Shown: in pieces, positions 4,870-13,993 of the stretch
Numbering within the stretch: the first letter of the stretch is position 1
How the letters are laid out: the number at the start of each line of letters is the position of its first letter
DNA from: Powellomyces hirtus
Lineage: Eukaryota; Chytridiomycota; Chytridiomycetes; Spizellomycetales; Powellomycetaceae
DNA: 64,000 bases
NCBI GenBank assembly: GCA_025526995.1
Contig: JAHLKG010000030.1
Location: forward strand, 134,501 to 198,500
Direction: 5' to 3'
Program-made: the position numbers and the translations under genes
The notes under the pieces: generated by a model
The model's input: only the letters and a program-made list of their open reading frames with translations
Told to the model about the DNA's origin: nothing
Database searches by the model: none

Positions 4870-4923
4870 TATCACAGTGCATCTGAGGTGTAGTATATAC
4901 TACACCTCAGATGCACTGTGATA
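4870..4923. repeat. perfect 54-bp palindrome
   Basis: The two 27-nt arms, beginning TATCACAGTGCATCTGAGG, are exact reverse complements with no spacer. It abuts the left 45-bp direct repeat of the island directly. It could extrude as a cruciform or be an inverted duplication left by an insertion event. Confidence 0.95.
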
Positions 4924-4968
4924 AATGTGGCTCGCGACGTGGCCGAGGTGGCCGAAAGTTTAGGTACT
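4924..4968 (+). repeat. left 45-bp direct repeat of the island
   Basis: Starts AATGTGGCTCGCGACGTGG and ends GAAAGTTTAGGTACT. It is identical over 45 bp and in the same orientation as 13949-13993. Confidence 0.85.
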
Positions 4969-5280
4969 GTGAAGGTATCTTTCACATTGCAACTAAGCGC
5001 CACATTTTGTGGCCTGGTGTGTGGCCTCGATTAATGTGGCCGAGCACTTAAATACCTGACTTCCAAGCCGATTTTGCCGATTTCAAGCCAAACAAGCCAA
5101 TGGAAAACACGTGCTCATGTACACGTCAGCACAGCACTTGAGCTGCCGAATCTCACTCACGCAGGCTCACCTGTCAAATCCCATTCTCCCCCCAACTCAT
5201 CTTACCATCTGACACCTCTCATCTCATCTCATCTTATCTCATAACACAACGAGCACAACACCACAAACGAGGTATGTAAG

Positions 5281-5349
5281 GGACGGGTTAGATGGTGTAT
5301 TTGAAGAGAGCAGTCCAATTTGCATTGAAAAACGAACTGACATGCGTCC
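5281..5349 (+). repeat. 69-bp element, copy 1 (5'UTR intron)
   Basis: Exactly 69 bp from GGACGGGTTAGAT to GACATGCGTCC. It makes up all but 14 nt of a probable leader intron 5272-5354, with donor GTATGTAAG and acceptor CGCAG just outside the element. Confidence 0.8.
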
Positions 5350-5385
5350 CGCAGTTTTTTAGTTTTTTTTTGTAAGTAGGGCATT

Positions 5386-6275
5386 ATGGGAACCGTAGCA
5401 AGATTGTTTAACCTAGGCGGAGGAGGTGGTGCAAGTGGTAGTGGTGGAAGTGGTGATGGTGAAAGGAAACGATCGTCGCAACCACCCAAAGAGGGACATT
5501 ATCTCGAAGGTTTTGCAGCCACTCAAGCTCGCATGGCGGAAGAAGAACTGCAAGCAACCGTTGCGCTCCTGCGATACCTTGCCAAAGCCTGCCCCCCTCA
5601 GACCTTACAGCGGAAGGGGACTGCCTGGTACTGGTGGACCATGACAGACATCAATCACATCAATACCTTGGCACATCAACTCGAGTCTGGTATGGTGGCT
5701 GGCTGGGCTCTTGTTGGCAATGAAGTAAGGAACTACGCTGGAGGGGAGCGTGTTAGGGGGATATGTGTACGCCAGGAGCTCTTGGGTATGTATGGACACG
5801 TTAAACATTGTCTTTGTGCATGTAAACAAATTTGGCAATCAAAAACACCATTTACTGCGGCTGTATGTGCTGGACACAGTAAATGGTTTTTTTGCACGCA
5901 ATCGGAGTAGCTATACGCTTTAACGTTATTTAATATGTCCACTCACTTCTACCTCTATTTATTGTTGTAGGCGGCGACCTCAAGTTTCATCCTGTCAATC
6001 GCGACCATCACGCAATGTGGCACATGCCAAGAGTCCCTAGAACTGCTGAGGTGGACTGCAGCCGTGGCTCACAGTGCTCAAATGCGAAAGCCAGAGAAAA
6101 CCCTGCCTGGGAGAGGGAGTTCCTTCCACCAACGATCCCAACAGCTACTCGTGCGACTCGTGCAAGAATGGGCAAGGTTTTGACCAAAGAATCAATGAAT
6201 CCCCAAGCTGATGAGATCATGACCGAGGATGAGCGGGATGAGCAGGAGGAGCAGGAGGAGGACAAGGATGAGTAG
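5386..6275 (+). CDS. unrecognised 234-aa island gene, 2 coding exons
   Basis: Exons 5386-5785 and 5971-6275; the 185-nt intron restores one frame (phase 1). A leader intron at 5272-5354 is likely, so both introns are built on 69-bp elements. The N-terminus is glycine/serine-rich (GGGGGASGSGGSGDG). The middle (about residues 45-130) looks globular and helical with several Trp/Tyr (GTAWYWWTMTDINHINTLAH). The C-terminus is acidic (EDERDEQEEQEEDKDE). I recognise no family. It is the leftmost gene of the island, and the stop is followed by a G-rich tract. Possibly a passenger of the same mobile element as the recombinase; that is inference. Confidence 0.65.
5794..5940. repeat. 69-bp element, copies 2 and 3, head to head
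   Basis: Copy 5794-5862 starts GGACACGTTAAAC (its last bases are degenerate). Copy 5872-5940 runs from GGACACAGTAAATGG to TTTAATATGTCC in the opposite orientation. Nine nt separate them, and GTATGT precedes each copy. Together they fill the intron 5786-5970. Confidence 0.85.
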
Positions 6276-6276
6276 T

Positions 6277-6319
6277 GGCAGAGGGGAGGGGCAGAGGGGA
6301 GGGGAGGGGAGGGGAGGGT
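6277..6319 (+). other. G-quadruplex-type tract
   Basis: Seven runs of three or four G separated by 1-4 nt, immediately after the stop codon of the 5386-6275 gene. It meets the usual G4 pattern on the plus strand. Confidence 0.6.
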
Positions 6320-6805
6320 TTTGATTGTTTTGCAATATAGTAGTATCAGTATTCATTTCAATCACATTCTGTTCCATTTCACACATGACACGCACACAGA
6401 CAATGCCACTAAAAAAGCAACCACCAAAGAAGCAACCACCAAAGAGGAAAAGGTCTCCCAGTCCCACAGCCTCAGACGAAGACCTTGAGACTGTTATGCA
6501 GACAAAAGACTGGACCGCAGGGGTTCCCCCCAAGTCTACACTTGTGAGATGGCCATCATGGCATATTTATACTTTTACTTATTTTTGGCTAGTAAAAAGC
6601 CATATCCCAAGTTAAGGCAGACGCGCCTCATAAGTGATTACCCAATCCTTCATAAGCATCTCCACAAGTCTCAGCTCTGTAAGCATACCCTCGCAATGCG
6701 CAGCTGCACTGCCCAGATACACTGCCCCGCTGCACTGCCATAGATCCCTAGATCATCTCCCCGTTCTCCCCAAGTTAGCTAGAGACTAAGAACCCGAGAA
6801 CCTCA

Positions 6806-6813
6806 TATATAAA
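6806..6813 (+). promoter_or_regulatory. TATA box upstream of gag
   Basis: TATATAAA about 250 nt before the gag start, in a region with the position of an LTR U3/R segment. No second LTR copy is visible to prove this. Confidence 0.35.
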
Positions 6814-7057
6814 TGAGAAGGAAAGCACCCCCGGTGGAGATCATCATCCATCAATACATCAACATCCAAAAACTCGAAATATCATATCATTTCCTCCCTA
6901 TCTCTCGCCTCTTCTTTTTAAGAACGACTCCAAGTCAATGAACTTCATACCTCCCGCCTTGAAACATAGGCACCTCACATGGTAGCACCACAGCGTCTTT
7001 CCTGTCAGAACTCACTTCTTCTCGCTCTTTTCCTTGATTAAAAACACAGTGATTCAC

Positions 7058-8808
7058 GATGGCTGCACCCGGACCTGCTGCCTGGACTTTTCCCGCCGTA
7101 GGCCCTGCCCTGCAGAATGGTGACCGGCTCAACAAGATCACCTTACAAACGACTCTGGTTGCCAATACAAGACGATTCCATACTTCTCTGGCGAACACGA
7201 TATGGAACTGATCGATCTCTTCGTCACCACGAATGTCAGAGCTTGCAACCACTTTATCACGGCTTATACCGGCATCGCTTACAACGAGTTCAACTATTTC
7301 GACGAGTACGCCATCACCAATATGGACCCTTCAGTCGTCGCCTGGCATGTCGCTATCATGAACAATCTTCACGTTCAACCCGCCGCGCCGGCCGAAGGCG
7401 TTGCCGCTTGGTGGGCCACCCAGTTCTACCAACGATGGATGCCCCGTAACGTTACCAATCGCCTACATCAAGAAATGGCAGCTCTTTCGCTTGGAAACTC
7501 GCTTGAGGATTACATCCGTGAACTGGAATGATATCGACATCTTGAAACAATTGCTGTCCGCGCCAACGGCAATGCTACCGAACGACTTCTCCTTAAATCC
7601 GAGATGATCGACATCTTTCGCGCAGGCCTTCTCCAAAACGCAACCTACGGTCTTTACCTTGTCCAAGCCCTGCAAAACTTCATGACGATGAGACTTACCA
7701 TCGGACAAGCGGTCACCTGGCCCCTGGCCGTAATCTGCGTCCGAAACGCAGCAGCCTCCTGCAACCTGGTTGATGGCTACCTTACTACTCCCGCACGGGC
7801 ACAAGCCAAGGCCCCTGCCCGATTCCACCCTTACTCAGGCATCAAACAAGCCCCCTCTCGTACCGCTCGACGGACCTTTCAACAACCCGCACCAGTTACT
7901 CCTCGAAGATCAACAATCGAAGGCCAAACATCTAAGCAAGCGATCCCCCAAACACCAAGAAAGAGACCTAGCTTACCAACGCCAATTACTACACCTCAAG
8001 GAACTCCTGCACGCAGACCAGCATTTCCTAGAACTCCAGCGACTCCCAAAACGCCTATGAAACGTGGGAGTGCTATGCTCTGCAAACAATGCGGACGAAC
8101 CAATCACAAGATCCAGGACTGTTTCGCTAAGCGAGACGTCAATGGCGAAGCAATCGGGGAATCAGCTACTAGCAGCACTTACCCGGTTAGACAAGTCAGT
8201 CGAATCAGCGAAATCAGAGCCGATGAGGAAGACCAAGACTCCCAGGATTTTCTGGACGGTTGGGAGTAGAAATCGGTTCCCCTCAACCCAATAAGGGACA
8301 TACTCTCTTCCCTGAATCCGATATTCCCTGGATGACATGTAATCGACCACCCGAAAGCCCTAAGGGCAATCCTACATCTATTCGACGAATGGATTTTCAA
8401 ACCCGACTTCAACCTGGCAAAGCTTCAAGCGCACCCAGTTGGGTCTTCCGAGTCAAAATGGGCACCAAGCCAATTATAGCCCTCTTGAACACCGGCTGCA
8501 ATACCATGGTCGTTCAAGACCGCGTAGCAGATGAACAAAGACTCGAGAAGAGACCTCTTGATAACCCATACGACATTGATACTGCCGGTGCTGGCCAAAG
8601 GATCCGAATCACCTCCTTTACCACCCAATCAATCCAAATTTTCAATAATGTCTTGCAAGACTACGACTCTGTTGCTTCTTTCCATTTCGAAATTGCGCCT
8701 ATTGGAATCCCTCTTATCTTGGGACTTCCATTCCCCACCAATATATTAAGTATGGAAGGAAAACTACTTATATCGGAGTTGATCACGTGGGTTCACGTGA
8801 TTGCGTGA
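7058..8808 (+). pseudogene. gag and aspartic protease of an LTR retrotransposon, decayed
   Basis: Gag begins near the ATG at 7058 and continues in a second frame with PYFSGEHDMELIDLFVTTN, a typical gag core, after a frameshift near 7160. An in-frame TGA follows at 7529. The second gag block (7604-8269) is rich in Pro/Arg/Thr and carries a zinc knuckle CKQCGRTNHKIQDC (C-x2-C-x4-H-x4-C). After another frame change, 8380-8808 encodes a retropepsin-like domain (KPIIALLNTGCNTMVV, later PLILGLPFP). The catalytic DTG reads NTG, so the protease would be inactive. Reverse transcriptase, RNase H and integrase are absent. This is a non-autonomous relic inserted in the H3-like gene. Confidence 0.7.
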
Positions 8809-8877
8809 TACGCCCTGCGATGGCGCAGTTATGACTCGATGACAGAGTCTGTACGTGCTAACACCCGCCCATGCTTT

Positions 8878-8984
8878 GCGGTCAAAACCATCATCTAATT
8901 TGTCCGAGTACCGCTGGACAAATTAGATGATGTTTTTGAATGCGCTTTGCCATTCTGAACCCTTTCTGATGATTTATTGTGTCC
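8878..8984. repeat. 69-bp element, copy 4, with hairpin arm
   Basis: Copy 8916-8984 runs from GGACAAATTAGATGATG to TTTATTGTGTCC. Its first 28 nt recur inverted at 8878-8905 (17 bp perfect at the core, 10-nt loop), the remains of a second head-to-head copy or a strong hairpin. It lies in the probable first intron of the H3-like gene. Confidence 0.7.
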
Positions 8985-9191
8985 TCCATCTTCCTTCAAT
9001 GCCAGCTATTACGCCTCCAAAGTGGGCGCATTGATCCCAAAGGCACCATTTCGATGATGTGTCTGCGGGATCGTCGTCCCGGTGTGGACAGACGAGTTGA
9101 ACGCAAAAGGAAAGCTGCGTTGGAATGCTAGGGGCATGGATGTACTGCAAGAAGGAGCAGAGCTCTTTCTGGCAAGTTTTTTGGCAGACTC

Positions 9192-9466
9192 TGTAATGAG
9201 GCGTGGCTCACCAGCCCAAGCCTAGACACGCATCGGGAAGGGTCCCGTGCGAGATGGATGCTAGCGTCAGCATCCTGAAGGGTACTAGACCTCAGGGATG
9301 GCCACGGATGGCCATCACGTGACCAGGGCCACTCCGCGGCCTAGAAGAAAAGTAGAAATGCTCCAACGAGGGCGCATTCAAGACTTAGAGATCTTACAGT
9401 AGAATTAGACAGAGGGAATTCCCAAATAGAAGACTAGACTCTGGCAACGGACCTAGTCTTATTACA
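9192..9466 (+). mobile_element. solo LTR 1 (275 bp)
   Basis: It begins TGTAAT and ends ATTACA and is flanked by the 5-bp duplication GACTC (9187-9191 and 9467-9471). The second solo LTR at 11114-11388 has the same length and highly similar sequence. Removing the LTR plus one GACTC restores the H3-like frame (FLADS|LLVS). Confidence 0.95.
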
Positions 9467-9539
9467 GACTCGCTCCTGGTGTCTCGCCATACCAGGCAAT
9501 CCACCGTCACAAAGTACGACGTAAGTGCATATCTGATTA

Positions 9540-9608
9540 GGACGCATTAAATCAGTTATTTGAACGATTGGTCCATCCGCTGGAAGCGAAAACTCAATTT
9601 ACTGTGCC
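9540..9608 (+). repeat. 69-bp element, copy 5 (intron)
   Basis: From GGACGCATTAAAT to TTTACTGTGCC, the last bases degenerate. It lies inside the 103-nt intron 9521-9623 of the H3-like gene (GTAAGT...TTGCAG, phase 0). Confidence 0.85.
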
Positions 9609-9988
9609 TTCATTACATTGCAGGTTCAGATTGCGGCAGCTCTGGGTGGGCGCCTTGATCCTGAACGCGTTAAGGAGTTGCGGCGACTGCAGATCTGCGA
9701 TGAGGCCGCCAGGGAGAAGGCGGCTTCTCTAAAAAGGAGAAAGGCGAAGGGGAAGGGGAAGGCAACGGCGACGGAGTCGGAGTCGGATTCTTCATCCGAA
9801 TATGAGCCTTACCCGCAAAAGTGGGACGATGAGGAAGACGCGTACAATCCACACGGTGAAGGGCCTTTGGGTGGGTCTGCTTCAGGTACCGCTGGTACCC
9901 CTGGTGTATCCTATGCAGATGTATAGTTTTGCAGCGGGGGGGTGGGGGGGGAGGGGTTGTTCCTATTATTTAGCATAAAGGTCCTATA

Positions 9989-10138
9989 GGACGCATTAAA
10001 TAGCACATATGAAAGCAGCTTTTCAACACGAGCACAATGAAAACATTTGACGCGTCCACACGGGATGCTGGACGCAATAGATAGTTTATTTGGAGGTCAA
10101 CTCTATCTGCCAGCGCAAAGAACACATATAAAGCGTCC
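9989..10138. repeat. 69-bp element, copies 6 and 7 (intergenic)
   Basis: 9989-10057 runs from GGACGCATTAAAT to TTGACGCGTCC. 10070-10138 runs from GGACGCAATAGAT to ATATAAAGCGTCC. Both are exactly 69 bp and lie 12 nt apart. They sit between the H3-like stop (9926) and the recombinase 3' end, so they are not in a coding intron. Confidence 0.85.
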
Positions 10139-10637
10139 AAGTCACTAGCTAATCTGCAGCAGGTGCTATAGGAGGACAACTAAGTTCTATATTATGACGC
10201 CTTGTCTTGGGTGGTGGCGATATGTGTGCCCTGTACTTATCCAGAGTCAATCCAAGCCCTTCTCTCTCCATGTCCATCATCTCGGCAATCTCATATCCTG
10301 TGCATCCAGACTCTCTCATTCACTTGTCGATTTCATTATATATCACCTTGCGCTTGCTCCAGTATTTCCATTCGGTTGAACTATGCGTTCGCCACGTTGC
10401 TTTGTGTGCCAGCTCTAAGCTATGTACGGAAGGATGTCGTCCAACAACCGTCCCCTTCTCATCAAGAATTGGCTGCCCTTCTTCATATTCCAACCAAACT
10501 TGAAGCACTGTCTGGTGATGCCGATAAAGCTCATATGGCAGCCATTTGGCAGACTCGGAGCCCTGTGTCTGTTGTGGTTGTGGTTGTTGTTGTTGTTGTG
10601 TCTCTTCTGCGTACAACTGCTGTTCCGTGTGGTTTCT

Positions 10638-10706
10638 GGACAGAATAAATGATGTATTTCAATTTAGAGCGCGGCTTGGGAGCAAAAAAGATCAGTTAAC
10701 CTGTCC
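10638..10706 (-). repeat. 69-bp element, copy 8 (intron)
   Basis: On the minus strand it reads from GGACAGGTTAACTG to CATTTATTCTGTCC, inside recombinase intron 10715-10636. The acceptor AG follows the element end directly. Confidence 0.85.
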
Positions 10707-10787
10707 AACGCTTACCTAGTAGTCGTACGCAACAGGGGTCCGTCGTCCTCTTCTTCTGACGTTGTTGACGTTGGAAAGAGTAATTGC

Positions 10788-10807
10788 GGGGGGGGGGGGG
10801 GGGGGGG
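10788..10807 (+). repeat. 20-G homopolymer
   Basis: Twenty consecutive G on the plus strand (poly-Pro codons in the recombinase gene). The frames before and after it differ by one step, so this is a slippage mutation or a length error of the assembly. Confidence 0.9.
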
Positions 10808-11007
10808 CATCCGTCAGCTGTGACATAGTAGACTGTAACTGGCGTGCTGCTGGAGATCGACAGATGTCGGATATCGCTGTTACCATCTCGTGCACCGCAA
10901 CAGAGGTGGCTTCTTGCCGAATGCCCAGTGCGTTACAATATGTCTGAAAAGTCCCTTGCATCTTCTCCGCTATACGGCTGGCGTCCTTCCGGGTATGTCT
11001 GATCTCT

Positions 11008-11076
11008 GGGCAAAGTAAATCGTATATTTCAACTCCAAATGCGGCTCAGAACTGAAAAAGATGCTTTAACGTGTCC
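11008..11076 (-). repeat. 69-bp element, copy 9 (intron)
   Basis: On the minus strand GGACACGTTAAAGC to GATTTACTTTGCCC. It fills all but 11 nt of recombinase intron 11085-11006; the acceptor AG directly follows. Confidence 0.85.
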
Positions 11077-11113
11077 TGTACATACCTTCGATGATTTCTT
11101 TACCCAGTCTGAT

Positions 11114-11388
11114 TGTAATGAGGCGTGGCTCGCCAGCCTAAGCCTAGACATGCGCCGGAAGGAGCCCCGCGCAAGATGGATGCTAGCGTCAGCATCCTGA
11201 GGGGTACTAGACCTTAGGGATGGCCACGGATGGCCATCACGTGCCCGGGACTGCCTCGCGGTCCAGAAGAAAAGTAGGAATACTCCGACGAGGGTGTATT
11301 CAAGACTTAGAGATCTTACAGCAGAATTAGAGATAGGGAATTCCCGAATAGAAGACTAGACTCTGGCAACGGACCTAGTATTATTACA
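11114..11388 (+). mobile_element. solo LTR 2 (275 bp)
   Basis: TGTAAT...ATTACA, same length and family as 9192-9466. It is flanked by the 5-bp duplication CTGAT (11109-11113 and 11389-11393). It interrupts the recombinase frame between NQNDMSI and RLGKEIIE, so it inserted after the recombinase. Confidence 0.95.
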
Positions 11389-11803
11389 CTGATAGACATG
11401 TCGTTTTGATTTGAGATTCCGCTCAACTCAAAGGAGAGTGCTTGATTACCAGTGGTAATCATTGATGCAATTTGTGGAACAACATATTGAAGAGTTGCCA
11501 GGGTTGGATTGACGACGCTGCGCATCCTGTCCAAGAGCTCTGTCTTGTAGAGAAGGAATGCTGGCGATCGGAACAGTGGATGGGTCCATATGGCATGCAA
11601 TGGAAATTTGTCTATCAAGACTGCAGCATCCTGAATGACAACACGGCACATTTTCTTCAACAGAATTGCAAAGCCTCGTCCAGCAATGTCCGTAACTTGT
11701 GGATTACCCAATGCTTCATCAACAAATGGAAACACGGCAGCTTCTAGTTCTTCAGGGACATCAATACATGCGCGGGGTAAGAAGAACCCGCCACCTCAAA
11801 GAT

Positions 11804-11872
11804 GGACGCGTTAGAATGTGTTTTTTGCATTCCCTTTATGGATGTCACACAATTAATCAATTTAATGCGTCC
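11804..11872 (-). repeat. 69-bp element, copy 10 (intron)
   Basis: On the minus strand GGACGCATTAAATTG to ATTCTAACGCGTCC, within the 83-nt recombinase intron 11877-11795 (donor GTAAT, acceptor TTTGAG, phase 1). Confidence 0.9.
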
Positions 11873-12248
11873 ATTACCTTGTATCAGCCATTGACCTAAT
11901 GCGCGCATAGCTTGTTTCGGGAGCTCCAAATCGTAAGACATATTCTTTGCTGTTTGGTCCCAGCCTCCCATTCTGTTAACGTCACTTCCATCCACGCCTC
12001 GAGATGTTGCTGTACGGACTGCAACGCCACGTGGGAGGTGTGTCACTTTTGATACATTGATGTTGCAAGCCTTGAGAGCCCGCTGATAGATTTGCGGATG
12101 AGATTGATATGACATGCCATTGGGATTATTGTCCTCGCATTCGTCTTTTCCCTCTCCCGCACCATCAACATCTACTTTTGGAGGTATTAGATAGCGGCAT
12201 TGCATGAAAGAGAACGGGAGGCATTCAAAAACATTGTCCAGTGTAGAC

Positions 12249-12317
12249 GGACGCAGTAAATGGTGCTTTTGACTGCAAGCTTGGCTTATGTTCACAAAGA
12301 CGATGTCTAACGTGTCC
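12249..12317 (-). repeat. 69-bp element, copy 11 (intron, boundaries uncertain)
   Basis: On the minus strand GGACACGTTAGACATCG to CCATTTACTGCGTCC. It lies at a recombinase intron. No acceptor beyond the element end keeps the frame, so part of the element may be retained in the exon. Confidence 0.8.
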
Positions 12318-12737
12318 CGTTTTACTTACATGTGTCTGCATGTTTCCGCTTTCTCGACTTCGCTCGCTTTGTATCTCTCTTCATGAAGTATGTGTTGTAC
12401 CATGACTTGTTATCGGTGAAGTCTGGCAGTTGTTCATTGGTCTTGTGATATTGATAGAAAAGGAAGAACGCGGCATGGCCAACAGGGCATAAGGCAGCCT
12501 CTTTATGGCGCATGCAAAGCACCTTTTCCTTGCGGCCTACTTTGTTTGTTTTCCCTTCGCGTGAAATGGTTATCATAGCGAATGCTGGCGTTGGTCCTTC
12601 CTCTTTTGGTAGATCAGAGCTGAACATATATGAGAGCTGAAGCAGTCTGATACTCTGTCCACGCCCCATAGTCGAATGTTGAAGAAGAAAGCATGCAGCA
12701 TTCTGCAAGCCCATCTCTGGTTGTGCCTACGGATATT

Positions 12738-12806
12738 GGACGCATTAGAATGTCTTTTTGCATAGATATCATGGATCATGGTTGAAATACTTGATTTAAT
12801 ATGTCC
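12738..12806 (-). repeat. 69-bp element, copy 12 (intron)
   Basis: On the minus strand GGACATATTAAATC to ATTCTAATGCGTCC, within the 84-nt recombinase intron 12810-12727 (phase 0). GTAGG occurs at both splice junctions. Confidence 0.9.
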
Positions 12807-13374
12807 CTACCTGTCCCCACCAATGCGCAACTAGGGCACTCTGTTCTGCTTCGCTGTACATATCAATGAGTGTTCCGACGCCACGGTCTTCAAATCCTTT
12901 TAACTCTCGCTGGAGTACTCCATGGGCGTAGGCTTTGACCATGTCGAAGAGTGTCTTTGTACGTGGGCAGTTATCTTTTGTATTCATGTTGAGTTGACAT
13001 TGATAAGACCACAAGTTGACGGTTGCCTTAATAAACTGCTCGATGCTCGCCTTGCTGTATGGTTTGTTCATTCCTTTTTCATCTTTGCGGCTTGAACCTT
13101 GCGGTATAACAGCTTTATTCAACCATAAAAGAACTTTGTCTGGCGCGACTCGCTCGTCCATGCCTAGGGAGCGACATCAATCTTTGTACCACTTTGCGCG
13201 CCATTCATATGCATTCCAAGTGGCCACAGGCCGTGCATTGTGGTTGGCAACGAGTTGATTCAAATTGTTTGCATGCAGGGCCATGAGGTTTTGAACGTCC
13301 TGGTTCATTGCGGTGCCATGGAGCGCTGCTGCAGCAGCAGGTGGTAGGTTGCACAGGTTCATTGCACGGGAAGG

Positions 13375-13627
13375 GGACGTAGTAAAGGTTGATTCCGAGG
13401 CGAGCGAGTTGGAAGCAGTCCAAAGAAGCAAAAAAGACTGTCCAGTGGAAGGAGGCGGACACAGTAAAGGTTGATTCCAAGGCGAGCGAGTTGGAAACAG
13501 TCCAAAGAAGCAAGAAAGACTGTTCCAATGGTCCCAGTGGTCCACAGCGGAAGGAGGCGGACGCAGTAAAGGTCGATTCCGAGGCGAGCGAGTTGGAAAC
13601 AGTCCAAAGAAGCAAGAAAGACTGTCC
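13375..13627 (-). repeat. 69-bp element, copies 13-15 in tandem
   Basis: 13375-13443 and 13559-13627 are 69 bp and 13457-13526 is 70 bp. Each runs on the plus strand from GGAC(A/G)(C/T)AGTAAAGG to AAAGACTGT(T)CC. They share much more sequence with each other than with the other copies, and the minus-strand frame reads through all three. Confidence 0.85.
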
Positions 13628-13948
13628 CAATGGTTGGTTAAAAATGTGGGCAAATGCAATTGCGAAAATGCAATGGCAATGGCGAAATGTCGTGGGGGTG
13701 GGCTCAAGTAACGAGATAAATACAGCCTACCTTATGTAAGAGACATTCCAATGGAGTCCAACCAGGTATCAGTTAATCGAGGCCACAGTGAGTGCTGTAA
13801 GCAGTGAAATACCTATGGTATTTGAGCTTTTCGTAGATAAATGTGTGGTTGACTATCTAGTGCAGATACCTGGGGGCGGTGAGCCCCGCTAGGTATTTGG
13901 TTATGTAAGCTTAGGTAAGGTCACGTGTATTTGTGGCCTTGGCTAGGC
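13628..13948. other. 5' flank of the recombinase, no gene
   Basis: No ORF of coding character. It contains short inverted stretches around TAGGTATTTGG and the start of the right island end. Confidence 0.4.
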
Positions 13949-13993
13949 AATGTGGCTCGCGACGTGGCCGAGGTGGCCGAAAGTTTAGGTACT
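13949..13993 (+). repeat. right 45-bp direct repeat of the island
   Basis: Exact copy of 4924-4968 in the same orientation. The flanks AGGTAT downstream are also partly shared. Confidence 0.85.

Follow-up and report, generated by a model that had tools for sequence, protein, structure and literature searches.

In a 64,000-nucleotide stretch of the Powellomyces hirtus genome (contig JAHLKG010000030.1; hereafter the window), a CryptonF-like mobile element at 4962..13993 (no strand assigned) contains about 17 short units, and every one of its nine predicted introns holds at least one. The units form a related family with inverted ends and a fixed length of 69 bp, lie in predicted introns of the element's genes and, at the sensitivity used, are restricted to this carrier. 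On balance we favour an explanation in which a non-autonomous inverted-repeat element made the introns of this transposon before the transposon spread here. Intron gain of this kind is introner-like but confined to one transposon, and is not that of an introner active genome-wide.

Results

Fixed length and free core of the 69-bp unit

The original prediction listed 15 starts of a GGAC...GTCC unit, all of which carry it; 14 of these units are 69 bp long; for that at 9540 the preferred reading is 70 bp, its right end being degraded. Its description of the ends as inverted repeats around variable interiors also holds, the repeats being approximately 23 bp with a consensus near GGACRCATTARATGGTGTTTTTG. 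Two further units bring the total to about 17. The sixteenth is a 40-bp stump (8866..8905, + strand) cut by a retroelement insertion, and its intact 69-bp form is found in another copy of the element at C22:14033-14101. The seventeenth is a shortened unit of 60 bp (12180..12239, − strand) with a weak hidden Markov model match (E 2.3, 12185-12235), recognised through its GGAC start, its CTAATACCTCC end and the 9-bp spacing to its neighbouring unit. A profile built from 12 units refinds those 12 in the window by construction (E 6.6e-13 to 1e-7), and its best further matches across the 64 kb are the piece ending at 8905 (E 0.02), the 12185-12235 match and one at E 2.4. A 15-row profile additionally picks up the three copies upstream of gene M. 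At this sensitivity the ordinary genes of the window contain no copy, as had been claimed.

Twelve complete units of 69 bp do not belong to the tandem array (ten intronic, two intergenic; the 70-bp P2-i2 unit and the 60-bp M-i2b unit are omitted because of their length), and among these the mean identity is 55%, with a minimum of 46%. Their interiors are 45% identical against 30% in shuffled sequences, with relatedness at p<0.01 in 31 of 66 pairs. The core (positions 23-47) is near random between units, at 36% identity against 30% in shuffles. Despite the 55% mean identity, only two of the 14 units outside the array deviate from a length of exactly 69 bp. For the other 12, a star tree with the indel:substitution ratio of coding sequence between element copies (34 gaps to about 762 differences) predicts approximately 12.8 indels. 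No gap was seen in 4,794 unit site-pairs between copies, which is suggestive only, as the pairs are not independent. The unit thus consists of two ~23-bp inverted ends and a freely varying ~23-bp core at fixed length. Since the core varies while the length stays fixed, the geometry of the unit is probably what mattered.

Units in the predicted introns of three genes

Nine introns were inferred in the carrier, all with a unit, in an inventory that could miss unit-less introns leaving no trace in the reading frame. Six hold a single unit (80-103 nt) and three hold two (185, 185 and 158 nt, with spacers of 9, 10 and 9 bp). The flank between unit and splice site is 4-19 nt on the 5′ side and 2-30 nt on the 3′ side. 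Units occupy predicted introns of three genes on both strands, as the original prediction held; its count of nine units in seven introns becomes 12 units in nine.

In gene P1 (5386..6276, + strand) one + strand unit, 5281..5349, lies in P1-i1 (5272-5354), a tentative intron of the predicted 5′ untranslated region, and two more, 5794..5862 and 5872..5940 (both +), form the double intron P1-i2 (5786-5970), called from an open frame and from the joint in P0002, one of three public P1 models. Gene P2 (6403..9926, + strand) contains the double intron P2-i1, with the stump at 8866..8905 followed by the unit 8916..8984 (+; 3′ splice site at 9005), and P2-i2 (9521-9623), with the 70-bp unit 9540..9609 (+), which is also 70 bp in a relic of the element at C17. 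The five predicted introns of gene M (10320..13362, − strand) have their units on the − strand: M-i1 (12727-12810) holds 12738..12806, the double intron M-i2 (12172-12329) holds 12249..12317 first and 12180..12239 second, M-i3 (11795-11877) holds 11804..11872, M-i4 (11004-11085) holds 11008..11076, and the tentative M-i5 (10636-10715) holds 10638..10706. Comparison with homologues gives gapless exon joints for M-i3, P2-i1 and P2-i2 and a nearly gapless one for M-i1 (a one-residue gap lies nearby), and the calls of M-i2 and M-i4 rest on phase. A shorter M-i2, 49 nt long with its end within the unit, was considered and dropped in favour of the 158-nt double intron, which agrees better with phase and homologues.

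The other units comprise an intergenic pair between the convergent genes P2 and M (9989..10057 and 10070..10138, + strand, 12-bp spacer) and, just upstream of the M start codon, the − strand units 13375..13443, 13457..13525 and 13559..13627, which are tandem duplicates numbering two or three per element copy. Double units span 147-150 bp in three of four cases (5794-5940, 9989-10138 and C22:13954-14101) and 138 bp in the fourth. A length of 147-150 bp is that of the nucleosome core; the match is probably a coincidence.

Intron-free sites in a relative of the element

The sequence at C27:9800-12366, a related CryptonF element, shares the last 148 bp of the carrier at 92% identity and adjoins a Copia-like fragment. 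Its M-like gene is identical to M at 149 of 458 aligned residues, in an open frame broken by one TGA. The comparison of introns with this gene covers M-i1, M-i2 and M-i3. Intron absence in a homologue was borne out: the sites of M-i1 and M-i3 are uninterrupted in the C27 gene, M-i3 without gaps and M-i1 with the one-residue gap nearby. A metagenome protein, P0001, agrees with uninterrupted M-i1 and M-i3 sites at the protein level, and M-i2 lies in a stretch missing from both the C27 homologue and P0001. The single intron of the C27 gene, as read, is without a unit. This comparison of sequences favours gain of M-i1 and M-i3 in the lineage of the 69-bp-bearing element, the alternative being intron loss in the C27 relative.

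Genome-wide restriction of the units to the carrier

Searched genome-wide with lengths of 54-84 bp allowed, a strict gapped pattern matches 21 places, all of them 69 bp long. The corresponding loose pattern matches 34, and 32 of these are exactly 69 bp and all 32 lie inside element copies; the remaining two, of 72 and 64 bp, are at the level of a reversed control (three places). Units whose ends are heavily worn would be missed by these patterns. A search with one end alone returned 46 matches, 44 of them in element copies or the C17 relic. The two odd matches (C6 and C40) are one duplicated chance locus with no second end. The units occur at identical places in each element copy, as far as preserved, including the ~0.5-kb relic at C17, and within the same limit no presence/absence difference between copies was found. 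Further copies of the unit, whose absence was to refute the original prediction, do exist, but only inside copies or relics of the carrier and at the same places, so that this refuting condition is half borne out. As all element copies share the unit positions, no gain is dated within this genome. A search for a partner transposon with the same ends, genome-wide and with up to 3 mismatches, found none.

Once a retroelement fragment (~6543-8863) and two long terminal repeat (LTR)-like inserts (9192-9464 and 11114-11388) are subtracted, the carrier measures approximately 6.16 kb. Its ends, ACTGTGAAGG... and ...AAGTTTAGGTACT, are common to five left ends and four right ends, each with different flanking DNA, which indicates that the island is mobile. 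ACT (or TACT) is present at both ends, and the flanks differ between copies. Copies of the element differ equally at codon positions 1+2 (5.23%) and 3 (5.22%), in a comparison that counted P2 exon 2 and M exons 5-6 as 'other' and placed the 3′ border of M-i2 3 nt off. They therefore decay neutrally, and a selection test on the units has little power.

The 275-bp LTR-like inserts, one in P2 and one in M, are 88% identical, with more copies near other element copies. A perfect 54-bp palindrome of two 27-bp arms without a spacer (4870-4923) adjoins a second occurrence of the 45-bp right end of the element (4924-4968 = 13949-13993), and the same palindrome also joins inverted element DNA at C30:114664.

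Genes of the carrier

The spliced prediction of gene M matches PF16787 (NDC10_II, E=1.9e-35) and its last exon matches PF12550 (GCR1_C, E=2.4e-9); the two domains are predicted to be joined in one protein. NDC10_II plus GCR1_C is the domain pair of CryptonF in the available text of Kojima and Jurka 2011 (PMC3212892). Columns containing R, H-x-x-R and Y are invariant in M, the C27 homologue and P0001, and may represent the catalytic residues. This copy of M has a nonsense codon near 13177. A poly-G/C run inside the gene (10786-10807) sets, by its length, the reading frame before GCR1_C.

P2 is a CENP-A/H3-like histone (PF00125, E=1.4e-17) whose gene is interrupted in this copy by the retroelement fragment and by an LTR-like insert, with its C22 counterpart at C22:13466-14327. 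Against the PDB it matches histone H3 (E=5.6e-14) and an H3/CENP-A chimera (E=1.3e-12). P2 shares with a second host H3-like frame (C6), which we take for the host CENP-A, an LIP(K/R)APFQ start, an extended loop 1 and, at the CENP-A position, a W. By overall identity P2 is no nearer to CENP-A than to H3 (identical columns number 48 of 132 with host H3 and 48 of 160 with the C6 frame). Two centromere-type proteins thus stand side by side in one transposon, a CENP-A/H3-like histone and an Ndc10-related (CryptonF) protein; a literature search for a Crypton with histone H3 returned, among the papers listed, none on such a pairing by title. P1 is an unknown protein with three relatives found, all from P. 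hirtus, and the AlphaFold model of P0002, with a mean predicted local distance difference test (pLDDT) score of 49, was not used. The viral contigs searched contain no relative of M and no exact unit pattern.

Discussion

These data allow us to propose how the introns of this element may have arisen. Inverted-repeat elements of 69 bp would have inserted repeatedly into one CryptonF-like mobile element, with the short flanks of each insertion supplying the predicted splice sites. A branch point in either orientation may come from TNTANY, on the inner side of the end repeat. The insertions predate today's copies of the mobile element, as these have them in common. Since the search for a partner with matching ends came up empty, the introns most likely entered the genome, or survived in it, only as cargo of the mobile element.

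A number of observations weigh against this explanation. No unit was found genome-wide outside copies or relics of the carrier, which is odd for an active transposon, and a spread of the family through the genome is not supported, with no insertion independent of the mobile element seen. Target-site duplications were likewise not found at lengths of 3-12 for 13 units of the C22 copy (lowest p 0.13; the row 13608-13676 was shifted by a single base). The pair GTATGTAT/GTATGTGCT flanking the first P1-i2 unit resembles such a duplication, but did not generalise. The element copies compared look decayed, which places activity in the past. Only four of 66 unit pairs are related at p<0.01 in the core, five of the 17 units lie outside introns, and the predicted splice sites are in the short flanks and not part of the unit. 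Splicing of the units is itself a prediction, drawn from the reading frame, from homology at the protein level and from a single public gene model out of three: P0003 matches only the 3′ site of P1-i2 and P0004 matches neither site. P1-i1, as a 5′ untranslated intron, and M-i5, which follows a frame-upsetting poly-C run, are weak calls.

The main rival, to which we give perhaps one chance in five, is that the units are working DNA sites of the element, for example paired putative binding sites for its own Ndc10/Crypton-type protein, housed in the introns and spacers of a compact element. This would account for the restriction to the carrier and for the fixed geometry, in which the end-to-end spacing is constant and the core free. 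It also suits units that occur in intergenic and promoter places, in pairs with 9-12 bp spacers, and only in an element that encodes NDC10_II and GCR1_C domains together with a CENP-A-like histone. Yet it leaves the coincidence of introns with units unexplained, and the unit ends diverge between copies by 4.9%, about like codon positions 1+2 (5.2%), so that no present constraint is seen, in a test of low power. A bolder form, which we consider doubtful, is that an element with centromere-like equipment of its own (an Ndc10-related recombinase beside a CENP-A-like histone) converted its paired 69-bp sites into introns that double as binding platforms needed for keeping and moving the element.

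Slightly less probable than simple DNA sites is that introns multiplied whole, by reverse splicing or gene conversion within one element, the unit being what filled a single ancestral intron. Although they belong to different genes, the double introns P1-i2 and M-i2 have 83 nt in common at 78%, spacer included. This similarity also counts in favour of the main explanation, and together with the missing target duplications it speaks for copying of entire introns; the unit, however, stays at 69 bp while its distances to the splice sites vary, its ends are inverted repeats, and five units are without recognised splice sites. It is improbable that an RNA hairpin of the inverted ends was selected to bring splice sites together. 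The ends are complementary, and among 12 folded sequences z is below -2 in two and between -1.4 and -2 in three more, but the other seven lie between -1 and +1.3, and intergenic copies exist, one of which holds the best z (-3.2). Chance similarity among short A+T-rich introns, to which the near-random cores might point, is refuted by the genome-wide patterns: 32 of 34 loose matches are exactly 69 bp and inside element copies, against three matches in the reversed control, and we give this reading almost no weight.

Miniature inverted-repeat transposable elements (MITEs) are short, lack an open reading frame and have terminal inverted repeats and a fixed length, all of which is true of the 69-bp unit. 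The unit differs from MITEs in that no target duplication, no dispersal outside the carrier and no same-ended partner were found. Another comparison is provided by introners, for which the available text of Gozashti et al. 2022 (PMC9860276) describes DNA-transposon signatures, with terminal inverted repeats in 72 of 177 families and target-site duplications in 49 of 130 published families. Published families multiply through genomes to between 5 and over 2,000 copies, and some draw their splice sites from flanking sequence (PMC9860276). The P. hirtus family resembles them in its related introns at many positions, short unit, inverted ends and flank-derived splice sites, but unlike them turned up in just three genes, all within a single transposon. 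It fits the core definition of an introner within the carrier and fails genome-wide spread, and we file it as a variant and not a plain member. Neither 'chytrid' nor 'Powellomyces' occurs in the main text of PMC9860276. Introner-like elements of Dothideomycetes are likewise related fungal introns at new positions, but are in host genes of Ascomycota, and the term 'inverted repeat' is absent from the available text (PMC4457414). The carrier, for its part, resembles CryptonF as described in the available text of PMC3212892 in the tyrosine recombinase-like NDC10_II plus GCR1_C of M and in short shared end bases with different flanks, and differs in also having a CENP-A-like histone, an unknown protein and introns built on 69-bp units; the word 'histone' itself occurs twice in PMC3212892. 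CryptonF ends are expected to have 4-6 bp direct repeats and no inverted repeats, to which the ACT or TACT at both ends of the carrier may correspond. Our literature search found no paper combining introner and Crypton, and two combining introner and chytrid.

How introners pass between species is an open question, for which horizontal transfer of transposons has been proposed (available text of PMC9860276). With a private module in all nine of its predicted introns, and none found elsewhere in the genome, this transposon is a specific candidate for a vehicle of intron-making elements. To our knowledge, this would be the first such case in a chytrid. The fixed geometry of the unit, in turn, makes the protein that mobilised it searchable.

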